From positions 103,754 to 167,753 of the forward strand of contig NZ_LT828543.1 of the NCBI RefSeq assembly GCF_900170035.1: a stretch of 64,000 nucleotides of DNA, in the 5' to 3' direction. Positions 21,443 through 61,358 of the stretch are shown here, one piece after another; position 1 is the stretch's first letter, and each line of letters starts with the position of its first letter. This DNA comes from Desulfamplus magnetovallimortis (lineage in GTDB: Bacteria > Desulfobacterota > Desulfobacteria > Desulfobacterales > Desulfobacteraceae). Below the pieces are notes generated by a model, which saw only the letters and a program-made list of their open reading frames with translations, did no database searches and was not told where the DNA came from. Both the position numbers and the translations under genes were made by a program.

Positions 21443-21676
21443 ATGAGAACAATACAAATGACACTGGATGATGACCTTGTTGATACTGTAGATTCTATCG
21501 TAAAATCCCTTAAGACAAGTCGTTCAGCATTTACCAGAGAGGCGCTTCGTGATGCTATAGAAAAGTATGATGTCAATCGTATGGAGGAAAAACATCGGAA
21601 AGGCTATCAACGTTTTCCTGTGGGTGTAGATGAATTTTCAGGCTGGGAAGATGAACAGGTTTGGGGTGATGCATGA
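21443..21676 (+). CDS. Ribbon-helix-helix antitoxin
   Basis: 77 aa. The N-terminal ribbon-helix-helix (RTIQMTLDDDLVDTVDSIV, then SRSAFTREALRDAI) binds DNA; the acidic C-terminal tail (VGVDEFSGWEDEQVWGDA) would wrap and block the toxin. Good site GGGAGGATCAA before the ATG. Overlaps the toxin gene by 4 bp, the usual order for autoregulated pairs. Confidence 0.88.
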   Translation: MRTIQMTLDDDLVDTVDSIVKSLKTSRSAFTREALRDAIEKYDVNRMEEKHRKGYQRFPVGVDEFSGWEDEQVWGDA

Positions 21677-21984
21677 AACGTGGAGAGATCAGATGGTACA
21701 AATTCACAAAGCCGGATAAGAAAAGACCAGTTTTAATTTTAACACGAAATTCAATTATCGAGTATCTTGGAGAAGTAACAGTAGCACCAATTACAAGCAC
21801 GATACGTGATATTCCATCTGAAGTATTTCTTTCTACCGATGATGGTATGCTGAATGACTGTGCAGTGAATTGTGATCATATACAGACCGTTTCTAAGGGA
21901 AAAATAGATGGTTTGATTACGACTCTACCAACAAAAAAAATGACCCAGGTGGGAAACGCTATCAAATTTGCTTTGCATATTTGA
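21673..21984 (+). CDS. MazF/PemK-family toxin
   Basis: 103 aa endoribonuclease toxin. Family features: MKRGEIRWYKF start, KKRPVLILTRN, APITSTIRDIPSEVFL (Thr/Ser/Arg site) and NCDHIQTVSKGKI. Length and order match MazEF-type modules. It would cut mRNA when the antitoxin is lost. The pair sits between the ATPase remnant and two nested MITEs, a typical accessory position. Confidence 0.9.
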   Translation: MKRGEIRWYKFTKPDKKRPVLILTRNSIIEYLGEVTVAPITSTIRDIPSEVFLSTDDGMLNDCAVNCDHIQTVSKGKIDGLITTLPTKKMTQVGNAIKFALHI

Positions 21985-22260: not shown

Positions 22261-22815
22261 ATGACGATTCTATTGGTTGATGAGAATACAACCTTTCAAA
22301 ATAAACTGACTGAGTTTCTTCAAGGAAAAGGATACTCTATTGTTCACGCTTCCAGTGGTTTTGAGGCTCTTGAACGTCTTCAGCAGTATCCCATAGGTAT
22401 AATCATTGCAACCTGGGAGATGTCAGACATGGATGGAATAGAGCTGTGTCGCACCATCCGAGGTTTGCCAAAGGACTCATATATCTATTTGATAATGTTG
22501 GCAAAAAAGTTGCCAAAAGAGAAAAAACTGGAAGGTTTCAGGGAGGGAATTGACTCATATCTGACCGAGCCCATTGATTTTGACGAACTGGAAGCACTGG
22601 TTCAAGTGGGAAAACGGATTGGAGGATTTAATACCCTGAAGGCGGAAGGGACTGGCCTTGATGCACTCCCTGGGCAACCTGAATCTCCAGGAGATATCTG
22701 GAAAAGGAGTGAAAAAGAGAGTAAAAAAGAGGCACAAGGGGAGAGTAAAAAGGGAACAGATAACGATTTTTCGCAAAAACATATTGCATCAGAAGATAAA
22801 AAGAAAGTCGTATGA
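22261..22815 (+). CDS. Degenerate receiver (pseudo-receiver) paired with DUF342 protein
   Basis: CheY-like fold of about 120 residues (TILLVDENTTFQNK; HASSGFEALERL) plus a charged, probably disordered Lys/Glu/Ser tail of 60 residues. The phospho-acceptor Asp is replaced by Thr (IIIATWEMSDMDG) and the conserved Lys before Pro by Glu (YLTEPID), so normal phosphorylation is not expected. Upstream GTG/ATG codons at 22222-22231 lie in the MITE arm; I choose ATG 22261 at the first receiver strand (22246 is possible). The stop overlaps the DUF342 start by 4 bp, so the two are coupled. Confidence 0.82.
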   Translation: MTILLVDENTTFQNKLTEFLQGKGYSIVHASSGFEALERLQQYPIGIIIATWEMSDMDGIELCRTIRGLPKDSYIYLIMLAKKLPKEKKLEGFREGIDSYLTEPIDFDELEALVQVGKRIGGFNTLKAEGTGLDALPGQPESPGDIWKRSEKESKKEAQGESKKGTDNDFSQKHIASEDKKKVV

Positions 22816-24680
22816 TAACAGAGAATATCAACGAGTATGATATTCTTCTTGCCAGAATTGCCCTGGGGCAGAACCTTGTGACAAAGAAACTGTTAGCAAG
22901 GGCATTTTCATTCCAACAAAGAGAAGCCACGGCAGGAAAGAAGATTCCCCTTGGGGAAATATTCCTGGAAAAAGGGGTGATCTCTCCCGAGAAACTGGAC
23001 GATCTTCATAGCGCCTTAACCCAGCGTCTCACCAAAAAGTCCGGTTTTTCAGACCAACAACTCCACTCAGGTAAATTAGACTATGCCAGTGATACAGAGC
23101 ACCAAAGGAGCCCAACCGAAGCCCCCTTTCATCTGATGGTCACTCCGGACAAACTGGAAGCCCGCATCCAGCTCAAAAAGGGTTTTTCCGAAAAAATAAC
23201 CCCGGATGATATCATTGATTTTCTACACCACAACGGCATAACATATGGTATTGCAGACATTGAAGAGATATCGCAATATTTAGAAACATTAAATAAAACC
23301 CGTTTGATTACGATTGCAAGAGGAAAATCACCATTACCGGGATGTGATGCATCCATGGTTTATCATTTTGATGTTGACCACTTAAAAGCTGGAACCGTCA
23401 GTGAAAATGGAGCAATTGATTACAGAGAACGGGGAAGCGCTCCACGGGTACAAACCGGAGATCTTCTGGCAACCAAACTTCCCATGCAAAATAGCGAGCC
23501 CGGAATTGATGTCTATGGCAAATCAATCCCTGCTCCTGAGGTAACGGATATCCCTTTCAAGTGCGGGGAAGGCACCCGTTTGTCAGAAGATGGTTTGATG
23601 CTTTATGCAACCCTTGATGGTCAGCCCAATCTTGCTGTTGGAGGGATGATTTCCGTCTATGCTGAACTTGTCATTAACGGGGATGTGAATTTCAATACCG
23701 GGAATATAAAGTTTGATGGCAATGTGATTGTAAATGGCTCCATTATGAATGGATTTGCCGTAACGTGCGGGAATCTGACCGCAAAAGAGATCATGGGAGG
23801 CAAAATCGTTGCATTGGGGGATGTGACTATTCCAGGTGGCATCATCAGTGCGGATGTCAAATCGGAAGGAAATATAACTGCAAAATTTATCACAGGATCA
23901 AATATAAAGTCCTTTGGCAACGTGATTGTGGAGAAAGAGGTGATCAATTCCAAAATACGTTCCAGCGGAATATTCAAAACAGATCGGGGCAAGATCATAT
24001 CCTCTTTTATTTCAGCCAAAATGGGCTTTGAATCAAAGGAAGTGGGGACAGATGTTTCCCCACCCTGCAGAATACATGTTGGCATGGATGAAAATGTCAA
24101 AAAGCGGATTCAGGCCTTTAATTATGCCATTGATGACAAGAAAAAAGTGCTGGAAAAGACCCAGAAACGATATGAAAAGCAGGCCGCAGCCCAGGTGGCC
24201 ATTCACCAGAAAATATCTGAATTGGCCCAGCGCCAGGATCGGATGATGTCGGAAAGACGATCTTTGGAACAGAAACTTGCCGAGTTAAAAAGAGACGGTG
24301 TGATGGATGGGAGAGGCAGAATTGGGGTAAAACTTCTGGAGCTTAAAACCAGAAACGAGACGACTGAACAAGAAAAGAACAACTGTTTTAAAAATCAAGA
24401 GCTGTTGGATGAAAAGATTGCCCAGGATCTAATAACTATCGAAACATTAGTAAAAGAGATAGAAAAAATCAGTGAAGAAAAAGATGCCATCATTAAATGG
24501 TCAATTGAGGAAAAAGGAGTCCCTGTCATTAAAGTAAAATGCCCAATTTGGCAAGGGACAAATCTGTTTGGGATTCATTCATCTCTGATGCTTACAGAAA
24601 CGGTTCGTAATGTGACGATAAAGGAAGTTAAATCAAATGATGCTGAATTGTGGAGATTGACAATTTTGGAATCAAAATAG
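22812..24680 (+). CDS. DUF342 / FapA-family protein
   Basis: 622 aa, cytosolic. An N-terminal helical region (LVTKKLLARAFSFQQRE; PLGEIFLEKGVISPEKLDDL) resembles the adaptor domain found in front of GspE/PilB ATPases. Then comes the DUF342 core with PLPGCD and a right-handed beta-helix of short repeats (LVINGDVNFNTGNIKFDGNV, NGSIMNGFAV, AKEIMGGKI, AKFITGSNI), then a long coiled coil (about 440-560) and a small C-terminal domain. In Vibrio, FapA helps polar flagellar assembly; here no flagellar gene is near. A paralogue with the same kind of receiver partner is at 33538-35574. Confidence 0.85.
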   Translation: MITENINEYDILLARIALGQNLVTKKLLARAFSFQQREATAGKKIPLGEIFLEKGVISPEKLDDLHSALTQRLTKKSGFSDQQLHSGKLDYASDTEHQRSPTEAPFHLMVTPDKLEARIQLKKGFSEKITPDDIIDFLHHNGITYGIADIEEISQYLETLNKTRLITIARGKSPLPGCDASMVYHFDVDHLKAGTVSENGAIDYRERGSAPRVQTGDLLATKLPMQNSEPGIDVYGKSIPAPEVTDIPFKCGEGTRLSEDGLMLYATLDGQPNLAVGGMISVYAELVINGDVNFNTGNIKFDGNVIVNGSIMNGFAVTCGNLTAKEIMGGKIVALGDVTIPGGIISADVKSEGNITAKFITGSNIKSFGNVIVEKEVINSKIRSSGIFKTDRGKIISSFISAKMGFESKEVGTDVSPPCRIHVGMDENVKKRIQAFNYAIDDKKKVLEKTQKRYEKQAAAQVAIHQKISELAQRQDRMMSERRSLEQKLAELKRDGVMDGRGRIGVKLLELKTRNETTEQEKNNCFKNQELLDEKIAQDLITIETLVKEIEKISEEKDAIIKWSIEEKGVPVIKVKCPIWQGTNLFGIHSSLMLTETVRNVTIKEVKSNDAELWRLTILESK

Positions 24681-33537: not shown

Positions 33538-35574
33538 TCAGATACCTTTGATCTCCATTTCAAAAAAATGCGGGTTATCCTCATCCTTTGCCATCTCTCT
33601 TATAATACACCTTGAGTAATCCTTTTCAAGAACAATCGAGCTTCCAGGGCCTATAATTTTGGAGCCTTGAAGAATGGTTCCGTTAACCTTTACAGTTGGG
33701 TTGGGTTCCATCATTCTTATTGACTGGCCTATTATCCTTTTCTCCTTTAACAGCACCATGTTTTTTTTCTCCTGCTGTTCAATTCCAAGTGATAGTTTAT
33801 CCCTTTTGGCTGTAAGAACACCCTGTTTTTCAAAAAGTGAATTTATGAGATCTTCTGCACTGTGTGCTCTTTCTTTCAGGGTTTTTATTTTTTCCGCAAC
33901 TTTTTTAAGCTCATTGTTATCGTTTGACTCTCTGTGGCGTACAAGCTGTTTTTTTAGCTCCTCTATTTCAAAAAGTGCCCTGTCCTGAATATGAGCAGAT
34001 TCTGTAATTTGTGTAAACAGTGCTTCATCTTCTCCATTAAGAAGATTCATGGCTTTTCTGATTTTATCTATGGTAATTCGCCCCTCTTCCAGAAGTTCGT
34101 CAATTTTTTTCTCCATCAGATCAGCAATGTCATCTGTTCCAACAACAAGATTCGAAGGTTTTGAGGCGATTGTTCCCACCTGTTTTGTCTCAATTCCTTT
34201 TCTGGCATTTAGGGTGGATGCCATAACCGTCCCCCTGAGAACATTGCAGGAGCCACTTAAAATAAGATTTGAATCAACAATCTCCTTTTCAACAGTGAAA
34301 TCTCCAAAACCGGTTATTTGGGAAGAATTTACAAATTTTGTATGAATATTGCCGACAGCTTTAACAGTTGTATGTGATATTCCGTTTGCAACATTTAAAT
34401 CGCCTTTTAGGTCAATGGTTGCACCTTCAATCTCCTTTGCTGTTAGGTTAATTCCTTTAACGGTCATTCCCTCTTTAATAATGCCATTTACCACAATATT
34501 TCCCTTGAAAATGACATTGCCAGTTTTAAGATCCACATCTCCTTTTATGACAAGTTCATCATTTACAGTTATGTTTCCCATGATATCCACATGGGGCTGT
34601 CCATTGGCAGCAGATGTTATTTGTAGTTTATCCTCTGAAATTATGGTACCGTTCCCTGAAGTAAATGGGGGATCAAAAGGCTCTTGTGGCATTATTTTTA
34701 TGCCAAAAACATCAACTCCTGAAATTCCTTCCTTAAATGGCGTTTTGATTGCCAGTAAAGTATCTTTGTTGACATATGGCATATCTCCTTTGTCACGAAA
34801 ATCTATGGAACCATCTTTCATGATTTTTCCAGGATTTGTATAGTCTGTCCTGAAAAGATAGTTGACAGAACCATCCTGACCGGCAATCGGCTTTACGCCT
34901 CTGGCTATTACAAATGGTTTTTCATCAGCTTCAGGTGTACTCTCCATAAGCCATTTTTCGATCTCCTCATCTGATATAATGCCATATGTTATTCTCTTTT
35001 TTTTCAAAAAATAGAGAAGTGACGATAGATTTACAATCTCAGATTTCAGCTCCTTTTTTTTGCGAATAAATGCCTCAATTTTATCATTAGAAACAGTCAG
35101 TTCAAGGTATTGATCAAGCAGTTTTTCTTCTCCTTCATACCGAACAATTCCTCCTTTACGCTCTATTATTGTGACATCTGTACTGAGAGTTGAAATATAA
35201 AGGCATCTTTTTACCTTTTCAATAAGGGGGGCATTTCCAGATTTTTTTTGCTCTTCTGCAGCAAATTCATTTTCTTCTGTATCGCTGGATTCTGCTTCAT
35301 TGCGGGTTTCTGTTTCATCATCAATTTCTGACTGTATATTCAGATCATAATTTCTGGTTTCTCCATTTATAATTGTATAAACCTCCGCGGGTCTCCATTC
35401 AAGTACATGGTTTGAGGCAACCTTGCCAAGCATATTTTTTAATGATTCATCAATGAGCAGAAACTCCCTGAAAAGATTCACAGGCTGGATCTCCACTTTT
35501 TTATGATCAAGAACGCCGGCAAGGGATATGCGTGTGGATAGAGCATCTTCCTTGTTTTTATTCAAAAGCCTCAA
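33538..35574 (-). CDS. DUF342 / FapA-family protein (second copy)
   Basis: 678 aa paralogue of the protein at 22812-24680. The N-terminal region (about 1-150) is different, with an acidic low-complexity stretch (about 80-115). The DUF342 core (PIAGQDGSVNYLFRTD; GISGVDVFG), the beta-helix repeats (LVIKGDVDLKTGNVIFKGNI, NGIIKEGMTV, AKEIEGATI, TKFVNSSQI), the coiled coil and the small C-terminal domain all align in order. The start seems to be TTG at 35574 with only a weak ribosome site, 11 bp after the pseudo-receiver stop, so it probably depends on translational coupling. Confidence 0.83.
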   Translation of the reverse strand: MRLLNKNKEDALSTRISLAGVLDHKKVEIQPVNLFREFLLIDESLKNMLGKVASNHVLEWRPAEVYTIINGETRNYDLNIQSEIDDETETRNEAESSDTEENEFAAEEQKKSGNAPLIEKVKRCLYISTLSTDVTIIERKGGIVRYEGEEKLLDQYLELTVSNDKIEAFIRKKKELKSEIVNLSSLLYFLKKKRITYGIISDEEIEKWLMESTPEADEKPFVIARGVKPIAGQDGSVNYLFRTDYTNPGKIMKDGSIDFRDKGDMPYVNKDTLLAIKTPFKEGISGVDVFGIKIMPQEPFDPPFTSGNGTIISEDKLQITSAANGQPHVDIMGNITVNDELVIKGDVDLKTGNVIFKGNIVVNGIIKEGMTVKGINLTAKEIEGATIDLKGDLNVANGISHTTVKAVGNIHTKFVNSSQITGFGDFTVEKEIVDSNLILSGSCNVLRGTVMASTLNARKGIETKQVGTIASKPSNLVVGTDDIADLMEKKIDELLEEGRITIDKIRKAMNLLNGEDEALFTQITESAHIQDRALFEIEELKKQLVRHRESNDNNELKKVAEKIKTLKERAHSAEDLINSLFEKQGVLTAKRDKLSLGIEQQEKKNMVLLKEKRIIGQSIRMMEPNPTVKVNGTILQGSKIIGPGSSIVLEKDYSRCIIREMAKDEDNPHFFEMEIKGI

Positions 35575-35585
35575 TTTCAGCTTGA

Positions 35586-36110
35586 CTACTTTTTTTTCCT
35601 TGTTTTCAACTGCTCTGCAAGTTTTTCTTCCTTGTGTTTAAGGCTTTTGGATTTAAGAAAGAGTTCCTGATTCTGGCGTTTTACAAGGCGTTTGTATATC
35701 TCTTTCTTTTTGATGCTCGTGAATTCATAAAGAGCATTTTCAGCCTTGCTGACAAGATCACTTTTATCAAAAGGAGTGGTCATGCATGCATGTATGTCTG
35801 TTGAGTTGATGGCCTCTATAAGTGCCTTGTTTTCACTGCGGGGCAGAACAAGCATTCTGCGGGTCAGAGGGGATATAGCTTCTGCCTTTGCAAGAAAATC
35901 GCTCCCATTTATTCCATTAAGGTTCACACCGCACACAATAAGGACAAAAGGGGACGATCTCCTTTTGTCAAGGAGTTCAAGTGCATCTGAAGGTGAGTCA
36001 TGCGAGACTGCCTCCCAATCAATGGAGACAAATATCTGTTTCATCATCTCTCTTTGTGACGGATCAGAATCAACAATCATGACTGTCGGTTTTTTTGTCT
36101 CATTCAGCAT
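35586..36110 (-). CDS. Degenerate receiver (pseudo-receiver) paired with second DUF342 protein
   Basis: 174 aa: a CheY-like fold (TVMIVDSDPSQREMM) followed by a basic coiled-coil tail (SIKKKEIYKRLVKRQNQELF). The phospho-acceptor Asp is replaced by Gly (LIVCGVNLNGINGSD) and the conserved Lys by Thr (ACMTTPFD), so it should not be phosphorylated in the usual way. Same partner logic as 22261-22815, yet the replacement residues differ. The ATG at 36110 follows the innermost of four tandem 27-bp copies that each hold an AGGAGA or AGAAGA site. Confidence 0.82.
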   Translation of the reverse strand: MLNETKKPTVMIVDSDPSQREMMKQIFVSIDWEAVSHDSPSDALELLDKRRSSPFVLIVCGVNLNGINGSDFLAKAEAISPLTRRMLVLPRSENKALIEAINSTDIHACMTTPFDKSDLVSKAENALYEFTSIKKKEIYKRLVKRQNQELFLKSKSLKHKEEKLAEQLKTRKKK

Positions 36111-36218
36111 TTTTATAATCTCTCCTGTGAAAGCAGATTTTATAACTTCTCCTGTAAAAGGAATTTTTATAACTTCTTCTGTGAAGGCGGGTATTACAAT
36201 TTCTCCTGTGAAGGCAGA
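36111..36218 (-). promoter_or_regulatory. Four tandem 27-bp repeats carrying ribosome-binding sites
   Basis: Units 36111-36137, 36138-36164, 36165-36191 and 36192-36218. On the - strand each reads close to yCTGCyTTCACAGGAGAA-GTTATAAAA, so a Shine-Dalgarno sequence is repeated every 27 bases directly before the ATG at 36110. The repeat is also open in frame with that ATG (SAFTGEIIK units) but has no start codon of its own. Confidence 0.7.
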
Positions 36219-36374: not shown

Positions 36375-37076
36375 TTACTTCTTCTTTTTTTCATCTTCTG
36401 TCTTTTTCTCTTTAACAACCTTTTCTTTGTTGACCATCTCTTTATTTATGGAATTATCAATAAAGCTGTTCAACTCATCAATAAGCTGATCAGGGTGGCA
36501 GGATGCATTTGAAAGGTCATCTTTAAGCTGTGCCTGGATATGCTCTATCTCCCTGTCCCGTTTTCTGATTTCTCTGTACTGCCTGCTTGTTATCTCCATC
36601 AATGCCTGTTCCATCTGTAATAATTTTTTATGCTGTGTTTTTGCAGTTACAAGAAGTCTTTCGTTTTCAATAATTTTTTCATACTGCAAAAAAGCAGAGT
36701 TCAGGGTTTCCATCAATATATCGTCATCCCATGGCTTCAAAAGGTATCTGTGAACAGAACCTTTGTTTATGGAGGCTGTAACAGTGTCAATATCCGAGTA
36801 CGCAGTTAAAAGAAAACGAATGGTATCAGGATGTATCTTTTTAGCCTGCTCAAGAAACTCGGCTCCGCTCATTTCGGGCATTTGCTGGTCAGACAAAATA
36901 ACGGAAAATGGCTTTTCAGCAGAGCGCATCTCGTCCATAGCTTTGTGGCCGCTCTCTGCATAGACAAAGGAAATATCATTTAATGTGAGAAGTCGCCCTA
37001 TGGATTTTCCAATCTTCTTTTCATCATCCACAATCAGGACAGTATGTGAAAATTTTCCGGTTGTTATTTTATCCAT
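36375..37076 (-). CDS. Response regulator with coiled-coil tail
   Basis: 233 aa from the ATG at 37076 (MDKITTGKF), which has AAGGCG upstream; a start at 37106 lacks a site. The receiver (residues about 12-130) has intact Asp (VILSDQQMPEMSG) and Lys (RYLLKPWDDD), in the style of receivers that precede HD-GYP or GGDEF domains. Here it is followed only by a coiled coil (IENERLLVTAKTQHKKLLQM) and a Lys/Glu-rich tail. It lies 145 bp downstream of the LHNIGNA kinase at 37222-39393 and is probably its partner. Confidence 0.85.
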   Translation of the reverse strand: MDKITTGKFSHTVLIVDDEKKIGKSIGRLLTLNDISFVYAESGHKAMDEMRSAEKPFSVILSDQQMPEMSGAEFLEQAKKIHPDTIRFLLTAYSDIDTVTASINKGSVHRYLLKPWDDDILMETLNSAFLQYEKIIENERLLVTAKTQHKKLLQMEQALMEITSRQYREIRKRDREIEHIQAQLKDDLSNASCHPDQLIDELNSFIDNSINKEMVNKEKVVKEKKTEDEKKKK

Positions 37077-37221
37077 TGTTTTCGCCTTAATACTTTTTTT
37101 ACTCATGAGTCATATGTTCTCGATTTTATAACTACATATAGTGCTTCATTAAACTAAAACGGCGAATATATGGTATGCCAAAAGAGAACTTACAACTCTT
37201 GAGTTTTTTTATTGCTATTTA

Positions 37222-39393
37222 TTATCCGAAATTGTCAAGTTCAAATTCCAGTATTACAGCAGCACCTTTCCCCTTTCCTTCACTGAAGATTTCAAGGGTT
37301 CCATTGTTGGCTTCCACAAAACTTTTACAATAATAAAGCCCAAATCCAGAGGAGCCTTTGCTGGATACGCCAAATTCAAAGATCCTTGACTGCTGATTAG
37401 TTTCAACTCCGCACCCTGTGTCTGAGATCCTTATCCCTATATGTCCTGAAGAGCAAACAATTCTCTCATTTAAAGAAGAATCATCATTTCTCACCTTGGA
37501 ATGAGATGCATCATTGTTCTCCTTGAAATAAGATTGGTCATTTTCCTTTTGCAAATAAGAGTTATCCTTTCCCTCCCTGTAATAGGTGGAGACCTCAATT
37601 TTGTGTGGTGCAAAATCGGGATTTTCGTCAATGGCATCGCAACTGTTCTTGATAAAATTTACAATTACCTGCATGAACTTATTTTTTTCCATTGAAAAGA
37701 GAGGAAGTCCGGATGCAAGATTTTTTTCAAGAATTATTCCCCTTTTGGAAAGAGATGTCTCCTGAATTCTCAGAGCATCTTCCACAAGATGATTTATCCT
37801 GATATTTTCCTTCATCTCATCTGTGCCCGGCGCATATGCTCTCTGAAGGCTCAACACTTGACTTACATAATCTATTGCAGCCGATGCCTTTTCTATCAGT
37901 GAATCGTTTTTCTGGCGTTCCATTTCAATATCTTTTATAAGTTCTCCCATATATCGGGCAATCTGAGTTCCTCTGGGATCTCTGGTTACATATTCCGTCA
38001 GGGTCTCCTTGTGTTCAGCAAGCTCCTGGTAGCACTGGACAAGATACTCAATCATGGGTTTGATATTGCCCTGTTTGAGTTTTTCCATGGTAACACCCAC
38101 CGGAGTTATTGCATTGCCAATGTTATGGAGTACCATTGCAGAAAGCTGTGCCCTTCCGGCCTCCACTGCCTTGTTGATAAGCTCTTTCTGGGTTTTTTCA
38201 AGTTCTCTTGTACGTTCCTTTACAAGTTGAACAAGATTTTTACGATGATTTTCAAGCTCTGCCTCAATCTTTTTGCGATGGGTTATGTCAATGTGGGTAC
38301 CAAGGCACCGTACAGGTTTGCCTTTGCTGTTTCTCTCCACCACTTTGCCGGTATCCAGAATCCATTTCCAGCTATTGTCTTTGCAGAGGAGACGCTGCTC
38401 GGTTTGATAAAGATGTTTTTTCCCTGACATATGGGCTTCAAGCTCCTTCATTACACGTTCCTTATCTTCAGGATGAAGCAGTTTTTCCCAGGATGAGACA
38501 TGGTGGGTTATATCATCCATCCCATATCCAAGCATTGTTGCCCATCTTTCGTTCCATATTACTTCGCCTGTCTCTACATTCCAGTCCCACAGGCCTGCTT
38601 CGCTTGCTTCAAGGGCAAGGTCAAGCCTCTCCCTGCTCCTTGCAAGCTCTTCGGTTCGGCTTGCAATCATTGTAACCATATGGTTGAAGTGGTTCATAAA
38701 AATACCCAGTTCATCCTTTCTTTTTACATTGATGCTCTGCCGGTACTCTCCTCCCATTGCAATCTTCTCCATTGTCAGGATAAGGCGGTTCAGAGGCTTC
38801 ATCATTATAAAATGGATAAGCCCTATACCGAGAAGCACAATTACAGCAAAAATTATCACAATGAGAAGGATCATGGAGCCTTTGAGGCTTGAAAGAATCT
38901 GATTTTGTGTGTCTGTTTTCAGTAGAAGATAAAGAACGTGTGTAATATCACTTTCAGATCCCGGATCATATGACCTTGTCCTGACAGGATAGGCAGTGGC
39001 ATAAAATTCATCTGTGCTGTCAACCATCTTTAATAGATTTTTTTCAAATATCTTTTTTACAATGGGAAGGTTCCGGTGTTCCCCAATGGTGAAAATATCG
39101 CTGGATGCCACTATATTGTCATTTCTGTCAATAAGAAAAATGGCTTTTATAAATCTATAAGCACCTGTTGTTTCAATGAGTTGCTGTATTTCAGTATAGT
39201 TCCGGCCATCAATGAGTGGAGCAAGGGCGCGTTCGGTGATATAAGCCGTAAAATCAGCATTTTCCTCAAGCTGGGCCTGGAGACGATCCCTTATCTGAAA
39301 AGATATTCCAAATCCTGAAATTGCAGCAGCACCGCCCATTATGCAAAGAAGGGCAATCCCTGCCTTTGTGTAGAGTGAATGAATAATTTTCAT
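37222..39393 (-). CDS. Sensor histidine kinase with LHNIGNA box (HAMP-PAS)
   Basis: 723 aa membrane kinase: TM1 (about 11-31), periplasmic sensor of about 135 residues, TM2 (about 172-197), HAMP, PAS (about 255-375, ASEAGLWDWNVETGEVIWNE), coiled coil, then phospho-acceptor helix AQLSAMVLHNIGNAITP and HATPase (NFIKNSCDAI, DTGCGV, GFGLYYCKSFVEANNG). The H-box HNIGN differs from the usual HEIRTPL. Inside the ATPase domain a 36-residue stretch (DNA 37460-37567) is four 9-residue repeats from tandem 27-bp DNA. ATG with AAAAGGAG upstream. It lies downstream of a lone substrate-binding protein. Confidence 0.9.
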   Translation of the reverse strand: MKIIHSLYTKAGIALLCIMGGAAAISGFGISFQIRDRLQAQLEENADFTAYITERALAPLIDGRNYTEIQQLIETTGAYRFIKAIFLIDRNDNIVASSDIFTIGEHRNLPIVKKIFEKNLLKMVDSTDEFYATAYPVRTRSYDPGSESDITHVLYLLLKTDTQNQILSSLKGSMILLIVIIFAVIVLLGIGLIHFIMMKPLNRLILTMEKIAMGGEYRQSINVKRKDELGIFMNHFNHMVTMIASRTEELARSRERLDLALEASEAGLWDWNVETGEVIWNERWATMLGYGMDDITHHVSSWEKLLHPEDKERVMKELEAHMSGKKHLYQTEQRLLCKDNSWKWILDTGKVVERNSKGKPVRCLGTHIDITHRKKIEAELENHRKNLVQLVKERTRELEKTQKELINKAVEAGRAQLSAMVLHNIGNAITPVGVTMEKLKQGNIKPMIEYLVQCYQELAEHKETLTEYVTRDPRGTQIARYMGELIKDIEMERQKNDSLIEKASAAIDYVSQVLSLQRAYAPGTDEMKENIRINHLVEDALRIQETSLSKRGIILEKNLASGLPLFSMEKNKFMQVIVNFIKNSCDAIDENPDFAPHKIEVSTYYREGKDNSYLQKENDQSYFKENNDASHSKVRNDDSSLNERIVCSSGHIGIRISDTGCGVETNQQSRIFEFGVSSKGSSGFGLYYCKSFVEANNGTLEIFSEGKGKGAAVILEFELDNFG
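37460..37567. repeat. Four tandem 27-bp repeats inside the kinase ATPase domain
   Basis: Units 37460-37486, 37487-37513, 37514-37540 and 37541-37567; + strand consensus near TTCTCCTTGAAATAAGATTG-kTCA. In frame they give DNSYLQKEN, DQSYFKENN, DASHSKVRN and DDSSLNERI. They lie between the KIEVSTYY strand and the GHIGIRISDTG strand. Confidence 0.75.
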
Positions 39394-43992: not shown

Positions 43993-45429
43993 CTATCTGT
44001 TTTCAGCGTTGACAGGCAGAAGTATAGTAAAACAACTTCCCTTTCCAACTTCGCTTTCAACTTCGATTGTTCCATGATGGGCCTTTATAATTTCATAGAC
44101 AATACTGAGCCCAAGTCCTGTTCCCTTTCCCACAGGCTTTGTGGTGAAAAAAGGATCAAAAAGTTTTTGAAGATTCACTTCAGGTATGCCGCATCCCGTA
44201 TCTTTTATTACTATTTCTACGAAATGGTCGGTTTTTCTTTTGCCTTTTTTCACAGAGCGTGTGGTTATTTCAATGGTGCCGTTCTCTTCAATTGACTGGG
44301 CTGCATTGACAAAAAGATTCATGAAAATCTGGCTTATTTTCTGGGGATAGCAGAGAATGTGAGGGATATCGCCGTAATTTTTCTTAACAACAGCCTTGTA
44401 TTTTATTTCGCTTTTGACCATCTTAAAAGTGGTGTCAATGGCGCTGTTGATGTCAAGCATCTTGTATTCAGACTCATCAACCCTTGAAAAGGTTCGGAGA
44501 TCCTGGACAATATCCCTTATTCTGTCAATTCCCTCAATTGATTCATTGGCAAGATCCTCAAGATCAGCCATTATAATATCAATCCTGTTTTTCTTTTTAT
44601 GTTGAGAAATATCATGTAACAGCGTTGCAGCATCAGGAGAACCTGACCCCATAAGCCACTTTTCAAGTGTTGCATATTTTTCATAAAGATCAACAATACG
44701 CTCAAAATATTTTTTGATGGCCGAAAGATTCGAGCGGACAAAGGCCACAGGATTGTTGATCTCATGGGCAACACCTGCTGCAAGAAGACCTATGGAAGCC
44801 ATTTTTTCAGCCTGTACAATCATGGATGCCTGTTTTTGCACCTTATCTTTGAGATTTTGATTCATCTCCTCAAGTTGTTCGTTGGCATTTCTGAGGCTCT
44901 CCTGGAGCTGGTTTTTTTTATGTTCGAGATTCCATGTATTGCTCAATGCCCTTGCAAATTGAAGTATCTCTTCATGGTTAAATGGTTTTCTTAAGTAAAA
45001 TATATCATCCCTTCCGGTCACAGCAATGATATCTTCAGGAGAGTATTCGCTGTAAGCCGTTACAATCACAATTTTTATAAAGGGATCAATTTCCCAGATT
45101 CTTCCTGATGTTTCACCTCCGTTGAGACCCGGCATTTTCATGTCAATAAATGCAACTGAAAATGGGCGGTTTTCTCCAAGGGATTTTTTTACCTCTTCAA
45201 TACCAATGGTTCCGTTTTCAGCCATAACAACTTCATAGCATTTATCCGGAGATGTTTTTAAAGTTTCACCAGGCAAAAAGCCGGATTCAGACCCTTTGGG
45301 CATGTCAAAAAGTGCCCTTCCCATTGATATGGTTTCAGACTCATCTGCCTCGGGAAGCAGTATGCTCTGATATGTTTCACGAATTCCAACATCGTCGTCA
45401 ATCACCAGGATTCTTCTGTTTTCTTCCAT
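43993..45429 (-). CDS. Receiver-histidine kinase (REC-HisKA-HATPase)
   Basis: 478 aa, soluble. N-terminal receiver with Asp in AFIDMKMPGLNG and Lys in YLRKPF, but with about 40 extra residues between helix 1 and strand 2 (MGRALFDMPKGSESGFLPGE region). A coiled coil leads to HisKA ([18 protein letters not shown]) and HATPase ([28 protein letters not shown]). A cytosolic kinase that is itself a phosphorelay target. Start ATG after GAGAGG. Co-directional with the related REC-kinase at 45524 (94 bp between). Confidence 0.9.
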   Translation of the reverse strand: MEENRRILVIDDDVGIRETYQSILLPEADESETISMGRALFDMPKGSESGFLPGETLKTSPDKCYEVVMAENGTIGIEEVKKSLGENRPFSVAFIDMKMPGLNGGETSGRIWEIDPFIKIVIVTAYSEYSPEDIIAVTGRDDIFYLRKPFNHEEILQFARALSNTWNLEHKKNQLQESLRNANEQLEEMNQNLKDKVQKQASMIVQAEKMASIGLLAAGVAHEINNPVAFVRSNLSAIKKYFERIVDLYEKYATLEKWLMGSGSPDAATLLHDISQHKKKNRIDIIMADLEDLANESIEGIDRIRDIVQDLRTFSRVDESEYKMLDINSAIDTTFKMVKSEIKYKAVVKKNYGDIPHILCYPQKISQIFMNLFVNAAQSIEENGTIEITTRSVKKGKRKTDHFVEIVIKDTGCGIPEVNLQKLFDPFFTTKPVGKGTGLGLSIVYEIIKAHHGTIEVESEVGKGSCFTILLPVNAENR

Positions 45430-45523: not shown

Positions 45524-46885
45524 TCAGGTTACAGGAATATCAACGTAAAAACATGTTTCACCATCTTCAGCTTCGCTTCTGACATTCAGATTCCATCCGT
45601 GAAGCTCCGTTATAATCCTTGCCTTGGGAAGGTTTAGTCCAAATCCCATACCGTTGTGCCGAGTATCTTCAAGATTTGCAAAGGGATCGAAAATGCTCTC
45701 CATTTTTGCCTTCTTGATACTGCTTCCCTGATTTGCAACTTCAATTCGCAGCATATTATCATTTTTCAACGCTTCTACAGATATCGTTCCACCCTCCCTT
45801 GAAAATTTTACTGAGTTGTCAACAAGGCTATTCAACATCTGGCTAAAAAGTTCTGCATCTGCATCAATTGAAAGCTGTTGTGGTACATTTTTATTTACAG
45901 TGAGCTTTTTCAATTTGATATCTTCAGCCTTCTGTTCAAGAACAGAGTCAACTATATGTTTTAAAGATAAATTTTCCTTTGTTATGGTGGCTTCGGGATT
46001 TGCAAGATCAAAATATGAAACCATCTCTTCCATGAACTTTGACAGCCTTTCTCCGCCAAGGGATATATAAGAGAGCATCTCTTTGTCATCAATTTCAAGA
46101 TTGTTCGGATCAATGTTTTCAACTGCTCCTATCCAGTTTAAAGGGGTATTGATTTCATGGCAGAGGTAGTGGATCATGGCATTTTTCTCAATATATCTTT
46201 TTTTGAATTTCCGGTTAAGCTCTCTCAGTTCAGCAGTTTGCATTTTTACAGTTTGCTCAAGTATTTTTTTCTGGTTCCGGCGATTTTGTTCAAGATTCCA
46301 TGTGTGGGTAAGGGTTCTGGCAAGCTGTTGAATCTCTTCATTGAAAAATGGTTTTCGCAGAAACAGAATATCATCCCTGCCTATGATTTTTATGATCTTT
46401 TCAAGTGTGTACTCACTGTATGCTGTTACAATAACTATCTTTATGTCTGGATCAATTTCCCATATTCTTCTTGATGTTTCAGCTCCGTTGATTCCCGGCA
46501 TCTTCATGTCTATAAAAGCAAGGGCAAAGGGACTCTCTTCTTCCAGTGCAGCCTTTACTTTTTCAATGGCTTTTGTTCCATTTTCTGCAAGTGTAAGATC
46601 ATAACTTGGCTTTAAATTAATGTTTTTATGCTCATCATAACTATTTGTAATTTTGTCTTTATCCTTGTGAACAATCTCCCCTTTGTTGTTAAAATCTGTA
46701 TTTTCAGAACTTTTTTTGTCAAAAAGATGCTCAGGTGTACCAAAAAGCGATTTGCCAGTTGAAATAAGAGCGGAATCTTTCTCTTCAGAGAGTATGGTCA
46801 TATAGGCATCCCGAATTCCCTTGTCATCATCAACTAAAAGTATCTTTCTGTTTTCCTGAAACGGATAATTAATTGTATTATTCAT
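45524..46885 (-). CDS. Receiver-histidine kinase with long receiver insert
   Basis: 453 aa from ATG 46885 (MNNTINYPF) preceded by AAAAAGGAA; a longer frame to 47020 reads through a class E repeat and is not real. Receiver with AFIDMKMPGING and FLRKPF, carrying an insert of about 55 residues rich in Asn, Lys and Asp between helix 1 and strand 2, longer than in the neighbour. Coiled coil, then HisKA with MIHYLCHEINTPLNWIG and HATPase (NSLVDNSVKF, MGFGLNLPKA). Paralogue of the 43993 gene; likely same phosphorelay. Confidence 0.88.
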   Translation of the reverse strand: MNNTINYPFQENRKILLVDDDKGIRDAYMTILSEEKDSALISTGKSLFGTPEHLFDKKSSENTDFNNKGEIVHKDKDKITNSYDEHKNINLKPSYDLTLAENGTKAIEKVKAALEEESPFALAFIDMKMPGINGAETSRRIWEIDPDIKIVIVTAYSEYTLEKIIKIIGRDDILFLRKPFFNEEIQQLARTLTHTWNLEQNRRNQKKILEQTVKMQTAELRELNRKFKKRYIEKNAMIHYLCHEINTPLNWIGAVENIDPNNLEIDDKEMLSYISLGGERLSKFMEEMVSYFDLANPEATITKENLSLKHIVDSVLEQKAEDIKLKKLTVNKNVPQQLSIDADAELFSQMLNSLVDNSVKFSREGGTISVEALKNDNMLRIEVANQGSSIKKAKMESIFDPFANLEDTRHNGMGFGLNLPKARIITELHGWNLNVRSEAEDGETCFYVDIPVT

Positions 46886-46984
46886 GTTGTATTTGTTCCT
46901 TTTTAATGTCTTACCCACCCCTCCCTTCCAGCAATGGGCTGGGGGTGAGGTGAATGGACAATTTATTTTTATTTGAATGACCTT

Positions 46985-47107
46985 GAACGCATCTTTTCGA
47001 TTGTGGCGGTCATCAGCCATGTACGTTTATAAGAAAGTCCCCGTGATTCAAGGCTTCTCAGGACTTTCATGCTTCGTTGTGGCAGGTTTGTCTGCCATGG
47101 CCGTTAT
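46985..47107. repeat. Class E repeat, variant unit pair
   Basis: CTTTTCGATTGTGGCGGTCATCAGCCATG, TATAAGAAAGTCC ... GGACTTTCATG and GTGGCAGG-TTTGTC-TGCCATGG, ending CGTTATAT at the stop of the next kinase gene. Confidence 0.5.
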
Positions 47108-56788: not shown

Positions 56789-57220
56789 ATGAAAAACATA
56801 AAAATGCTGCTTGTGGATGATGAAAAGGGATTCATTGATACCCTGAGCAAACGCCTTGAAAAACGAGAACTTTCTGTCAGTGCTGTTTACAACGGAGAGG
56901 ACGCTATCTCTAAGCTTAAAGAGAATTCAGATATTGAGGTTGTTATCCTTGATGTAAAGATGCCGGGTATGGATGGCATTGAGACATTGACCGAGATTAA
57001 AAGAGTCTATCCCCTTGTGGAGGTTATCATGCTTACAGGTCATGCAACTGTTGAGACAGCCATTGATGGCATGAAGGTTGGGGCATTTGATTACCTCATG
57101 AAACCCTGTGACATAGAACTGTTGGTTGACAAGGTTAAGGGTGCAGCAAAACGAAAAAGAGATCATGAACAGAAAATTACAGATGCACGTATAAAAGAGA
57201 TCACAGAGAGGATGGCCTGA
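56789..57220 (+). CDS. Stand-alone response regulator (receiver only)
   Basis: 143 aa. IKMLLVDDEKGFIDTLSKRL; phospho-Asp in VVILDVKMPGMDG; Thr/Ser in MLTGHATVETAIDG; Lys in YLMKPCDI. It ends with a short basic helix. One of four close paralogues in this cluster (57308, 59738, 61359). Strong AAAAAGGAGA site. Follows the dCACHE kinase by 108 bp and has no DNA-binding output, so it probably acts by protein contact or relay. Confidence 0.92.
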   Translation: MKNIKMLLVDDEKGFIDTLSKRLEKRELSVSAVYNGEDAISKLKENSDIEVVILDVKMPGMDGIETLTEIKRVYPLVEVIMLTGHATVETAIDGMKVGAFDYLMKPCDIELLVDKVKGAAKRKRDHEQKITDARIKEITERMA

Positions 57221-57307
57221 TTAAAATTTTCAGTCGTTATGTAAATTAAGTTACAATGAAATAGGATAAATGGGCTGGGATACAGAATCTGCCTGGGGGA
57301 GAGGAAT

Positions 57308-57712
57308 ATGAACAGTAAAAATAAAGAGACAAATATCATAAGGGTTCTTCTGGTGGATGATGAGCAGGGGTATCTAAATGTCCTCTCCAACAGGATGGCC
57401 CGCCGATCCATTCAGGCTACAAAAGCCTTCAGCGGAACAGAAGCCATACAGATTCTTCGTAAAAACGATTTTGATGTGGTGGTTCTGGATCTGAAGATGG
57501 AGGATATGGACGGCATTGAAGTTTTGAAAGTTATCAAGCGTATGGTGCCGGAGCTTCCTGTGATCATACTGACAGGGCACGGCTCGCAAACCGCTGCCGA
57601 GGAAGGCATCTCTTTTGGTGCATTTGATTACCTTAGCAAACCATGCGAGCTTAGCGAGCTTCTGGAGAAGATCCGCGAAGCATATCAACATCAACCAAAC
57701 TCTGACAGTTGA
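57308..57712 (+). CDS. Stand-alone response regulator
   Basis: 134 aa receiver. Asp in VVVLDLKMEDMDG (Glu-Asp instead of the usual Pro-Gly), ILTGHGSQTAAEEG, Lys in YLSKPCEL. AGAGG site before ATG. Its stop lies 17 bp before the DASS permease start, so it is cotranscribed with the permease. Confidence 0.9.
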   Translation: MNSKNKETNIIRVLLVDDEQGYLNVLSNRMARRSIQATKAFSGTEAIQILRKNDFDVVVLDLKMEDMDGIEVLKVIKRMVPELPVIILTGHGSQTAAEEGISFGAFDYLSKPCELSELLEKIREAYQHQPNSDS

Positions 57713-57729
57713 TCTGTCAAGGAGAAAAT

Positions 57730-59322
57730 ATGTTTTATAAAACTAATGGATTTAAACTCTGTGCGGCATTGCTGATAGGTATTATAGTCTTTATTCTGCC
57801 AAGGCCGGAGGGGACACAATTCAAGATAACAGGCGATTCAGCTAAAATCCTGATACAAAATGTGGGAGAGCATTTCACCCTTATTCCTGATGGAGAGATT
57901 GAGGCTAAAAAGAAAACCGGAGCCTATATCCTCAAGGCAAAGGTTCCAGGTTCTTCCGAGGGAAGCGCTGATTTTCTGGTCAAAAAGGCAAAGGAGCTTG
58001 ACCTTGAGAAAGTTCAGGTGGATTATGTTGATGGATTATCACCCAAGGCCAAACGGTTCCTTGCAATTCTTGCTGTTCTTATAATACTTTTTGTATTTGA
58101 GCCTATTCCACTTGAAATAACAGCCGTTCTTATAGGTGTTTCTCTGGTGATCATGCAGATTACCGATGTAAAAAATGCATGGGCACCTTATATGCATCCG
58201 GTTGTCATATTTATAATGTGCTGCCTTATATTTGCAATTGCCCTTGAAAAGGCAGGTCTGACAAAGCGACTTGGATACTTTATTATCAAAAAAGCAGGGA
58301 ACAGCGTAACCCGATTTACCTTTATCATTGCCATTGGCCTGGGGCTTGCATCATCATTCATGCATGATGCTGCGGCCTGTGCCATAGGCATTGTAACCAT
58401 GCTGCCGCTTATGCGGGCTGTTGGTATCGAACCCCATACCAGCACCGCCAAATTTATGATGCTATCACTTCCATTTGCCTGCTCAAGCGGTGGCATGGGC
58501 TCCCTTATCGGAGGGGGGCGATGTATGGTTTCCGCAGCGTTTTTAAAGGAGTTCACAGGGCTTGAAATCACATTTTTCGACTGGATTCTTTACGCAATGC
58601 CGGCTGCAATTATAACTGTTCCTGCTGCTGTGTTTATTGTTTACATGGTTTACAAACCAGACCCGCAATTCAAGCTGCCTGATTTTGATGAAAGCATGGG
58701 TGCAATGACATCCCTTGAGAAAAAGACCCTTGCAATTATTGCATTCTCATTTGTTCTGTGGCTTACCAAAGGGCTTCATGGCATTGATTATTCCATCACA
58801 GGAATGCTTGGGGTTACAGCCCTTGTTCTCTTCAAGGTTCTTACATGGAGAGATATAAATGACAACCTTGAGTGGGGTACATCGCTTTTCATCTTTGGCG
58901 GCGGTATTTCACTTGGTCTTGCCATGGGGTATTCAGGAGCCGCTGATTACTTTGCAAATCTCTTTTTCCCGCTTATCCAGGGCAAAGGCTGGCTTGTTCT
59001 ATTTGTCGGAGTGGGTGTTTTCGGTGCCCTTGTCACCAATGCAATGGCCAATGTGGCAGCCGCTGCATTGATTCTTCCCATTGTAATTCCCATGGCACAG
59101 CTTGAGGGTGTGAATCCCACCATTCTTGCGCTGTGCCTTGGCATGGCAACATCCTTTGCCATGCTGCTTGTAATAGGATGTCCGCCCAATGCCATTGCAT
59201 ACAGTTATCGCTATTTCAAGTCATCTGATCTTACAAAGGCAGGGCTTGTGGCAACGCCGATTCTGCTTTCGCTTCTGGTTCTGGTTGCTGCTGTCTGGTG
59301 GAGAATTCTGGGATTAATCTGA
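57730..59322 (+). CDS. DASS/SLC13-family anion permease
   Basis: 530 aa from ATG 57730 with AAGGAGAAAA upstream. TM1 (LCAALLIGIIVFILP), an external region of about 80 residues, then 11 or so helices with divalent-anion symporter hallmarks (PLEITAVLIGVSLVIMQI; SSFMHDAAACAIGIVTMLPL; LPFACSSGGMGSLIGGG; ATSFAMLLVIGCPPNAIAYS). Substrates of the family are sulfate, dicarboxylates or citrate with Na+ or H+; in a sulfate reducer sulfate is plausible but not proven. The external domain after TM1 is an unusual addition. Confidence 0.9.
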   Translation: MFYKTNGFKLCAALLIGIIVFILPRPEGTQFKITGDSAKILIQNVGEHFTLIPDGEIEAKKKTGAYILKAKVPGSSEGSADFLVKKAKELDLEKVQVDYVDGLSPKAKRFLAILAVLIILFVFEPIPLEITAVLIGVSLVIMQITDVKNAWAPYMHPVVIFIMCCLIFAIALEKAGLTKRLGYFIIKKAGNSVTRFTFIIAIGLGLASSFMHDAAACAIGIVTMLPLMRAVGIEPHTSTAKFMMLSLPFACSSGGMGSLIGGGRCMVSAAFLKEFTGLEITFFDWILYAMPAAIITVPAAVFIVYMVYKPDPQFKLPDFDESMGAMTSLEKKTLAIIAFSFVLWLTKGLHGIDYSITGMLGVTALVLFKVLTWRDINDNLEWGTSLFIFGGGISLGLAMGYSGAADYFANLFFPLIQGKGWLVLFVGVGVFGALVTNAMANVAAAALILPIVIPMAQLEGVNPTILALCLGMATSFAMLLVIGCPPNAIAYSYRYFKSSDLTKAGLVATPILLSLLVLVAAVWWRILGLI

Positions 59323-59334
59323 TGAAAAATGGTA

Positions 59335-59433
59335 TAGATTTCCAGAAAAATATTTTGGCATTCTCAATTCTGAAGGGCAACCACAAGGGATTGCCCCCTA
59401 CAGTGCTCGCCAATTTAATTATCTGGCACAGTA
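59335..59433. mobile_element. Class D MITE, 99 bp, TA target
   Basis: Ends TAGATTTCCAGA and ATCTGGCACAGTA; GGGCAACC-ACAAGG-GATTGCCC centre. TA at 59333-59334 and 59434-59435. Starts 12 bp after the permease stop. Confidence 0.8.
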
Positions 59434-59513
59434 TAGAAGCGGATCCTGAATCTGCCTGCAACTGTTGAATCGCCCACAGCAGTTGTTCAGGAAGGCAGGT
59501 TCAGGAGAAGCTT

Positions 59514-59700
59514 TTTACCGTAAAAATGACTATCATTTTTATGTTTGGGGGTGATTGATACGTAATCATGCCCGTTTACCGTGAAAATGGATACAAATTT
59601 TCATGTTCGGGGGTGGCTGAATCACAGCCATGTCCGTTTACCGTGAAAATATCCCAAGTTATTTTAATGATCAGGGATGGCCAAAATTCGGCCATGACGG
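59514..59700. repeat. Class B repeat, three tandem units
   Basis: Units 59514-59574, 59575-59636 and 59637-59700 (61, 62 and 64 bp). Each begins TTTACCGTRAAAAT and ends near CATGNCCG, with two short hairpins joined by GGGGGTG. The longest class B array in the window, 37 bp before a receiver gene. Confidence 0.7.
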
Positions 59701-59737
59701 TTTAGCTTAATCCATAAATCTGAAAGGGATACAGAGC

Positions 59738-60238
59738 ATGGAGAAAATGAACAGTGAAAAAATCAGGGTTCTTCTTGTTGACGATGAAGAGGGATTCAGA
59801 TCGGCAATTGCAAGAAGGCTTGGAAAGAGAGGAATTTTTCCCATGCAGGCCGGAAGCGGGGAGGAGTGCCTTGAGATTCTTGGAGTGGAGCCAGTGGATG
59901 TTGTTGTTCTGGATGTTAAGATGCCCGGTATCGGCGGCATTGAGACCCTGAAAATCATCAGAACGAGCCATGCAAATGTTCAGGTTATTCTGCTCACCGG
60001 AAATGTTGCAGTTTCAGACGGTGTTGAAGGAATCAAGTCCGGAGCATTTGATTATCTGACAAAACCTGTTGAAATTGATCATCTTCATACCAAGATCATG
60101 CAGGCCTTTGATATTAGAAAACTTCAGCAGGAGCAGGAAAAGGAGCGTGAATACAGGGCAAAACTGGAAAAAAAATGGTTGAAACAGAGCGCCTTGTGGC
60201 CATTGGAACCATGTCCACCGGTATTGCACATGAAATAA
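59738..60238 (+). CDS. Receiver part of a split receiver-kinase gene
   Basis: Receiver (KIRVLLVDDEEGFRSAIARR; Asp in VVVLDVKMPGIGG; Lys in YLTKPVEI) followed by a coiled coil (KLQQEQEKEREYRAKLEKK). At the A8 run 60168-60175 this frame departs into WLKQSALWPLEP and stops at 60238. Shifting by -1 there continues KKMVETERLVAIGTMSTGIA, the normal start of the kinase core. ATG follows GGGATACAGAG. Confidence 0.85.
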   Translation: MEKMNSEKIRVLLVDDEEGFRSAIARRLGKRGIFPMQAGSGEECLEILGVEPVDVVVLDVKMPGIGGIETLKIIRTSHANVQVILLTGNVAVSDGVEGIKSGAFDYLTKPVEIDHLHTKIMQAFDIRKLQQEQEKEREYRAKLEKKWLKQSALWPLEPCPPVLHMK

Positions 60239-60966: not shown

Positions 60967-60985
60967 AAAAATGTCAATAATAATA

Positions 60986-61158
60986 CTCAAAATCGACACC
61001 TATAATCTCTTGAGCCTTGTCAATATTGTCTGAATCAGGATTCCCAAGATTAACAGGATAAGGCAGGATTATCTATCCTGAACATCTTGTTTATCCTGGT
61101 TATCCTGATTCAGACAAATTCAGTAAATGGAAAAAAGCAATAAGATGTCGATTTTGAG
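60986..61158. mobile_element. Class A MITE, full length (173 bp), 7-bp target duplication
   Basis: CTCAAAATCGACACC ... GTCGATTTTGAG; inner GTCTGAATCAGG / CCTGATTCAGAC. AATAATA at 60979-60985 and 61159-61165. A second class A fragment (right inner arm only) follows at about 61180-61226. Confidence 0.75.
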
Positions 61159-61239
61159 AATAATAAAGAGCAACAAGGATATATATCCTGAGTATCCTGT
61201 TAATCCTGGTTATCCTATTCAGACAAGTACAATAAATAA

Positions 61240-61333
61240 ACGGTCATGGCCGGCATTCAGCCACCCCCGAATATGGAAATTTGTATCTATTTCCACGGTA
61301 AAAATAAAAATTTATATCCATTTTTACGTTAAT
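61240..61333. repeat. Class B repeat, one and a half units
   Basis: AACGGTCATGGCCGGCATTCAGCC, ACCCCCGAATATGG, TTTCCACGGTAAAA, then a partial second ATATCCATTTTTACGTTAA. Ends 26 bp before the next receiver gene. Confidence 0.6.
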
Positions 61334-61358
61334 ACAACAATTCAAGGAGTAAAAAGCA

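Follow-up and report, generated by a model that had tools for sequence, protein, structure and literature searches.

The stretch of DNA analysed here, referred to as the window, covers 64,000 nucleotides of contig NZ_LT828543.1 of Desulfamplus magnetovallimortis (positions 103,754 to 167,753, forward strand). At two places it encodes a pseudo-receiver, i.e. a receiver domain without the phosphorylatable aspartate, next to a FapA (DUF342) protein. The two modules, termed copy 1 and copy 2, belong to two separate lineages, and their pseudo-receivers are very probably retained as phosphorylation-independent modules. Such pseudo-receivers, adjoining FapA scaffolds or fused to them, occur in sulfate-reducing bacteria. 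A first-pass annotation of the window knew of no description of such a combination, and none was found for DUF342/FapA with a receiver in the literature searched, which covered few subscription papers. The two modules consist of the following features:

22261 to 22815, plus strand: pseudo-receiver of copy 1 (lineage II); PF00072 match with E 2e-18 and 67 bits against a cut-off of 30.2
22812 to 24680, plus strand: FapA (DUF342) protein of copy 1; PF20250 (FapA_N) E 3.4e-38, PF03961 E 2.1e-36
35586 to 36110, minus strand: pseudo-receiver of copy 2 (lineage I); PF00072 match with E 8.5e-10 and 39.2 bits against the cut-off of 30.2
33538 to 35574, minus strand: FapA protein of copy 2, as the called open reading frame (ORF) with a TTG start, the frame being open to 35637; PF20250 E 1.5e-37, PF03961 E 4.7e-26

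Catalytic residues and ancestry of the pseudo-receivers

Mapping onto the receiver profile showed that the five active-site positions of copy 1 are D, E, T, A and E, i.e. the phospho-Asp is replaced by Thr, the conserved Thr by Ala and the conserved Lys by Glu. The same positions in copy 2 are D, S, G, L and T, with Asp replaced by Gly, Lys by Thr and the conserved Thr also changed. The earlier reading of the Asp and Lys positions was correct for both copies, as were the coordinates given. The best NCBIfam models were of the PhoB and PleD types for the receiver of copy 1 and of the NosR type for that of copy 2, all below cut-off; this difference is in line with separate lineages.

A search of relatives gave a FapA match in 45 of 58 genomes at E 0.001 (41 over the cut-off). 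The genome of the window itself has six such places above the cut-off, a further piece of one of them being counted separately. The fetched neighbourhoods hold at least 152 FapA ORFs among the matches listed, including the two of the window, and many of these carry an N-terminal fused receiver. A second set of 76 loci, obtained in one scan of genome contigs, comprised Desulfamplus, Desulfobacula, Desulfotignum, Desulfobacter latus, D. vibrioformis, Desulfospira joergensenii and others. Some genomes occur in both sets; identical receiver sequences were counted once, and near-copies were kept. When a lineage I profile was compared with 340 genomes of the class, at least 42 matched across nearly all 821 positions (one with an internal stop), a lower bound counted by hand with two candidates scored per genome. 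At least 39 of these genomes lie in the window's family (69 family genomes in the table), at least two in family f14 and at least one in f52. Among 36 lineage I members, the FapA domain was matched in all, FapA_N in 34 and PF00072 in 31 (E 0.001). The pairing of a receiver with FapA is real and conserved, but the coupled gene pair is not its typical form: relatives usually have pseudo-receiver and FapA fused in a single protein.

In a tree of 167 receiver domains, copy 2 falls into a clade of 31 pseudo-receivers (support 100) together with 30 fused ones, which defines lineage I, and copy 1 into a separate clade (support 100) with those of loci L061, L080 and L176, which defines lineage II; L238, L242, L243 and L246 of the second locus set are also lineage II. 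The FapA tree is concordant, placing copy 1 with L061 and L080 (99) and copy 2 inside the lineage I clade (99). A corrected tree of 66 of the 270 distinct receiver domains, with two L233 rows left out, contained lineage I (16 rows, 100/98) and lineage II (8 rows, 100/99) as clades. Here, a branch with support 95/93 has lineage I, the receivers encoded upstream of FapA genes and the fused intact receivers on one side, and lineage II with other receivers on the opposite side. In the approximately unbiased (AU) test on the same 66 rows, a single clade of both receiver lineages was rejected (p-AU 0.0093); the group tested had been named only after the first tree had been viewed. The separate receiver and FapA clades, together with this test, reject a duplication of one receiver/FapA pair, so the description of copy 2 as a diverged copy of the same pair is not confirmed.

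A larger tree of 261 of the 270 domains, with short pieces omitted, showed the lineage I clade with 61 rows (Shimodaira-Hasegawa-like approximate likelihood ratio test, SH-aLRT, 99) and the lineage II clade with 8 rows including copy 1 (89). The domain of L233, labelled 'other' and cut at a contig end, falls inside lineage I. Fused intact receivers, a residue-based label, form at least two groups in this tree. According to the first-pass annotation, intact Asp and Lys beside DUF342 genes of other species would speak against its reading; some FapA proteins do carry fused intact receivers, all of which fall outside the clades of lineages I and II.

Three further observations concern these outlying forms. 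The fused receiver/FapA protein at L236:2428-5001, labelled lineage I, has neither Asp nor Lys (NNNSY) and lies outside both lineages in the large tree, perhaps representing a third pseudo-receiver case. In L045, L052, L102, L105 and L110, which belong to the same genus, two tandem FapA genes each have a fused intact receiver. The receiver parts of two kinase-like proteins of the window (43993-45429 and 45524-47020) group (support 100) with receivers of L045, L102, L105 and L110, whose genes come shortly after fused intact-receiver/FapA genes in these same-genus genomes.

Asp and Lys were counted on the tree-defined groups of the large tree. In lineage I, Asp is present in 3 of the 61 domains scorable at the Asp, Thr and Lys positions, Lys in none (0/61) and both in none (0/61). 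Neither residue occurs in lineage II, copy 1 included (0/8 for Asp and 0/8 for Lys). The upstream receivers, 220 to 330 residues long and encoded directly before the FapA gene, make up 59 rows that a weakly supported branch (53) sets apart; they keep both residues in 52/59 and Lys in 59/59. Other receivers of the same stretches have both in 98/106. The 63 genes labelled lineage I, a set defined partly by the lost residues, carry a mostly hydrophobic residue at the Lys position (Leu 19, Tyr 13, Ile 11, Val 5 and Phe 5 of 62). At K-3, the switch position, Cys is found in 60/63 lineage I genes, compared with Tyr or Phe in 58/59 upstream receivers and Phe or Tyr in 8/8 lineage II members; Cys also occurs at this position in one fused intact receiver. 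Further lineage I cysteines occupy profile columns 116 (75%) and 28 (51%). Two Desulfobacula loci, L183 and L194, present the reverse of the usual situation, with an upstream receiver without Asp and a fused pseudo-receiver with Asp but no Lys.

Selection was assessed by the pairwise ratio of nonsynonymous to synonymous substitution rates (dN/dS). For lineage I, this ratio is 0.07-0.25 in the receiver part in 13/14 pairs, the remaining pair having no usable dS, and 0.09-0.23 in the FapA part in 13/14 pairs; several of these dS values are high and the ratios hence imprecise. The corresponding values for lineage II are 0.16-0.49 in the receiver part (13/15 pairs; 0.25-0.49 where dS is below 2) and 0.12-0.18 in the FapA part (15/15 pairs). 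Codon resampling of five lineage II pairs gave ratios of 1 or more in 0, 4, 1, 6 and 0 of 2000 draws, with upper bounds of 0.55-0.81. Receivers of the copy 1 kind are therefore constrained, though less than those of lineage I; their dN/dS is below 1 and mostly higher than that of their FapA part. Plain decay is rejected for lineage I by these ratios and is less strongly excluded for lineage II. The initial view that the receivers are kept independently of phosphorylation and are not decaying agrees with the absence of Asp plus Lys from both clades (0/61 and 0/8), with dN/dS below 1 and with the new fixed residues of lineage I. That two separate pseudo-receiver groups are kept under selection suggests that they serve as docking parts rather than switches.

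Gene organisation, neighbouring genes and predicted structure

The two genes of copy 1 are joined by a four-base ATGA overlap at 22812-22815, and the PF20250 and PF03961 matches identify the second product as a DUF342/FapA protein; both points had been read from the sequence before. The pseudo-receiver ends in a Lys/Glu-rich C-terminal linker, and the FapA protein consists of an MshE-like N-terminal stretch followed by FapA_N, a beta-solenoid and a C-terminal region. When its first 106 residues were searched as an isolated stretch, model NF053729 scored 31.2 bits, below the cut-off of 38, so a role of this stretch in cyclic di-GMP signalling is only a lead. In copy 1 the module is split into two genes, unlike in the six complete lineage II relatives, which are all fused; L176 is in pieces. 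A CBS-domain gene precedes the lineage II module in L238 and, judged by similar sequence, in L176. A PemK/MazF-type toxin gene (21673-21984) is situated a short distance upstream of copy 1.

The copy 2 locus contains additional features, all on the minus strand:

35586 to 35600, minus strand: AGG AAA AAA AAG TAG, a run of eight A with an A AAA AAG heptamer at the receiver stop, from sequence and alignment
36111 to 36218, minus strand: four tandem repeats of 27 bases immediately before the receiver start, with an AGGAGA-like motif on this strand
36375 to 37106, minus strand: intact receiver with a coiled-coil-like tail, the lineage I partner gene; PF00072 E 1.2e-18, active-site positions DDDTK with Asp, Lys and Thr kept
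37222 to 39393, minus strand: histidine kinase-like protein (HAMP, PAS and HATPase_c by Pfam), upstream of the lineage I module

The FapA frame of copy 2 stays open in the -1 frame across the run of eight A and aligns to the single-ORF relative L096 from L096 residue 167, so that the homology runs through the junction and begins upstream of the called TTG start. A receiver and a FapA protein thus exist at 33538-36110, as first annotated, but they are not clearly a gene pair. The locus resembles a fused gene that a frame change in this run has interrupted. A programmed frameshift was considered because of the slippery A AAA AAG heptamer, but RNA around the run folded no better than shuffled sequences (z 0.17); transcript slippage, a real break or a homopolymer error are equally possible. 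Among other lineage I genes, L151 (genome G033) lies in two pieces about 2.9 kb apart, and L185 is split inside FapA with a four-base overlap. The 27-base repeats may be repeated ribosome-binding sites, going by their motif. The intact receiver at 36375-37106 groups within the clade of upstream receivers (98/97 in the corrected tree), and the kinase-like protein is a possible phosphodonor.

A comparable arrangement is found in most lineage I loci. A receiver gene lies at most 450 bases upstream on the same strand in 53/63 lineage I genes, standing alone in 44 and being a fused intact receiver/FapA gene in nine; eight of the other ten are cut by the sequence end. Of the stand-alone upstream receivers, 11/44 overlap the lineage I gene by four bases. 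The order in L117, L123 and L126 is receiver-coil, intact receiver/FapA and pseudo-receiver/FapA, and in the second module of the window's genome (L010) the receiver gene is preceded by a DUF3418 helicase. A 356-residue, solenoid-only FapA of the lineage I branch, with neither receiver nor FapA_N, is present in three genomes of the same genus (G004, G005 and G007). In G007 (L144) it directly follows a helicase of the DUF3418 family, in G005 (L127) the same order is indicated by similar sequence, and in G004 (L140) no helicase is among the ORFs listed. The joint loss of receiver and FapA_N is weak evidence for a joint function and may be one deletion.

Besides receivers and kinases, the commonest neighbours in 70 module neighbourhoods (5 kb) are a glycosyltransferase (21 loci) and a carboxyl transferase (12 loci), followed by pyruvate:ferredoxin-type oxidoreductase genes (10-13 loci); the neighbours are otherwise diverse. 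No flagellar family was recognised among the clusters recurring in at least three of these neighbourhoods, part of the representatives having been scanned and the others assessed by eye. In a same-genus relative (L144:2615-3763), FliS and FlaG genes are found in the vicinity of the solenoid-only FapA. A CheD-HDOD fusion (L133:3017-4360) just downstream of a lineage I gene is a possible link to chemotaxis. Elsewhere in the window, four small stand-alone receivers of 134-166 residues (56789-61799) form one clade (98) and are apparently local duplicates.

An AlphaFold model built from 36 sequences for a lineage I protein, that of Desulfospira joergensenii (L201), has a mean predicted local distance difference test score (pLDDT) of 82.5 and a predicted template modelling score (pTM) of 0.44. 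It shows a complete receiver fold whose last helix (122-192) continues for about 70 residues, followed by the solenoid and long C-terminal helices. The five-fold beta-alpha receiver fold is kept in this relative of the window proteins, which matches 3kcn over 134 residues with a Z score of 21.6. Receivers, including PleD, are the solved structures most similar to it (Z between 21.6 and 18.9 in the best 50 rows); at rank 22 stands 5u8m, a redox sensor of a streptococcus that derives from a response regulator. For lineage II, the model (8 sequences) is of low quality, with a pLDDT of 61.4 and helix 4 not formed, but it still matches receivers. In the search of the lineage I profile against solved structures, the best 60 of 191 match in the receiver part. 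Since the lists of the fold searches were filled by receivers, the FapA part was barely covered; no solved structure was found by sequence for FapA copy 1 at E 1.

Possible mechanism and relation to known systems

Combining these data, we arrived at an explanation that has, in our estimate, about an even chance of being right: the pseudo-receivers would be phosphorylation-independent docking domains on a FapA scaffold, and in lineage I an upstream intact receiver would signal to them in trans. Itself unphosphorylated, the pseudo-receiver would set where or with whom the scaffold, made of beta-solenoid and coiled coil, works. In lineage I, a histidine kinase would phosphorylate the separate upstream receiver, which has a coiled-coil tail and belongs to the same receiver subfamily. 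The phosphorylated receiver would then pair with the pseudo-receiver, so that the phospho-signal might reach FapA in trans, as it does within one chain in PleD. For lineage II, including copy 1, docking may be constitutive, because no receiver gene was found adjoining it.

A more specific proposal, possible though somewhat on the doubtful side, is that these modules represent a split PleD-like switch of the Desulfobacterales. Here, a phosphorylatable receiver from the same subfamily, encoded as a protein of its own, would read the dead receiver on the FapA beta-solenoid by means of a coiled coil that pairs receiver and pseudo-receiver, with a scaffold as output. A second, separately derived lineage on another FapA branch would mean that FapA has repeatedly recruited dead receivers.

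Several observations weigh against the docking explanation. In the loci examined, none of the lineage II modules was found to have a receiver gene as its direct neighbour, and their upstream genes vary, with a glycerol-3-phosphate dehydrogenase-like oxidoreductase in five loci. A phosphorylatable partner is also not universal in lineage I: Asp is lost in 7/59 upstream receivers, the available sequence of L185 and L236 contains no upstream receiver, and that of L103 is short (133 residues). The loss of residues is incomplete, with Asp retained without Lys in 3/61 lineage I domains, and 5/36 lineage I members gave no PF00072 match at E 0.001. The modelled member L201 itself scores 21.9 bits against PF00072, below the cut-off of 30.2, and the pTM of its single-chain model makes the domain arrangement unreliable and contacts not readable. 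Finally, in lineage II the receiver part has mostly evolved at a higher rate than the FapA part.

The comparison with PleD, in which an intact receiver works with a pseudo-receiver followed by a diguanylate cyclase (PMC12632262), rests on the intact receiver alongside a pseudo-receiver in lineage I loci and on PleD being among the best structural matches. Unlike in PleD, the intact receiver of lineage I is a separate gene and a FapA scaffold takes the place of the cyclase as output. Heterodimers have been reported for BldM/WhiI of Streptomyces and proposed for CmrT/CmrR of the CmrRST system of Clostridioides difficile (PMC12632262). In these systems, too, a pseudo- or atypical receiver is encoded or works with another response regulator, but they act on gene expression, whereas lineage I has a scaffold protein as output. 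The 2025 review called the switching mechanisms of bacterial pseudo-receivers a mystery, and FapA does not occur in its text (PMC12632262).

Rather unlikely, in our view, is docking in the manner of FrzS of Myxococcus xanthus, with the pseudo-receiver directly binding a polar landmark or other partner and the upstream receiver merely being co-expressed and acting elsewhere. FrzS has a receiver without phospho-Asp whose function is phosphorylation-independent and which steers polar localisation, and it requires its switch Tyr (PMC1974792); a C-terminal coiled coil is predicted (PMC12632262). The window receivers likewise have no phospho-Asp. The absence of a receiver gene beside lineage II and the loss of Asp in 7/59 upstream receivers fit such docking, as does the combination of missing phospho-Asp and control of polar localisation in FrzS itself. 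We take its switch Tyr to be at K-3, and we know of no FapA solenoid in FrzS. Lineage I differs in carrying Cys at K-3 in 60/63 genes, although lineage II keeps Phe or Tyr there. The tight linkage of the upstream receiver in lineage I (53/63 genes with eight more cut, and 11/44 stand-alone genes overlapping by four bases) also argues against mere co-expression.

The fixed Cys of lineage I at K-3 and its further cysteines in columns 116 and 28, together with the structural match to 5u8m, could instead indicate a redox or metal switch in which thiol chemistry replaces phosphorylation. We consider this improbable, as a buried Cys may just fill space beside the residue that replaces Lys, one fused intact receiver also has it, and lineage II carries Phe or Tyr at K-3 in 8/8. 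Decay, i.e. functionless receiver remnants carried along with FapA, would fit the faster evolution of most lineage II receiver parts and the solenoid-only FapA of G004, G005 and G007, but is very improbable given a dN/dS that stays below 1 wherever dS is usable (0.07-0.25 for lineage I), the new fixed residues of lineage I and the spread of the pseudo-receivers across several genera.

On the scaffold side, both window proteins have FapA_N and a beta-solenoid like FapA of Vibrio. Vibrio FapA binds dephospho-EIIAGlc only, i.e. it is controlled by a signalling partner, which resembles the control proposed here for the window modules (PMC6877527). Titles in the reference list of the same paper link FapA to HubP and the flagellated pole, and BB0267 of Borrelia was named FapA (PMC11607428). 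Unlike these two proteins, the window-type proteins have an extra N-terminal receiver-type domain, fused or adjoining, occur as several paralogues per genome (six places in that of the window) and are without a recognised flagellar gene among the families recurring beside them.

The two lineages amount to two natural experiments on one type of scaffold, a clade of some 60 distinct pseudo-receivers that have a partner receiver linked to them versus a small clade without one, and the intact receiver/FapA fusions of related genomes provide built-in controls. The hypothesis of receiver/pseudo-receiver pairing is thereby directly testable, and FapA, a little-studied scaffold, would gain a possible signalling input.

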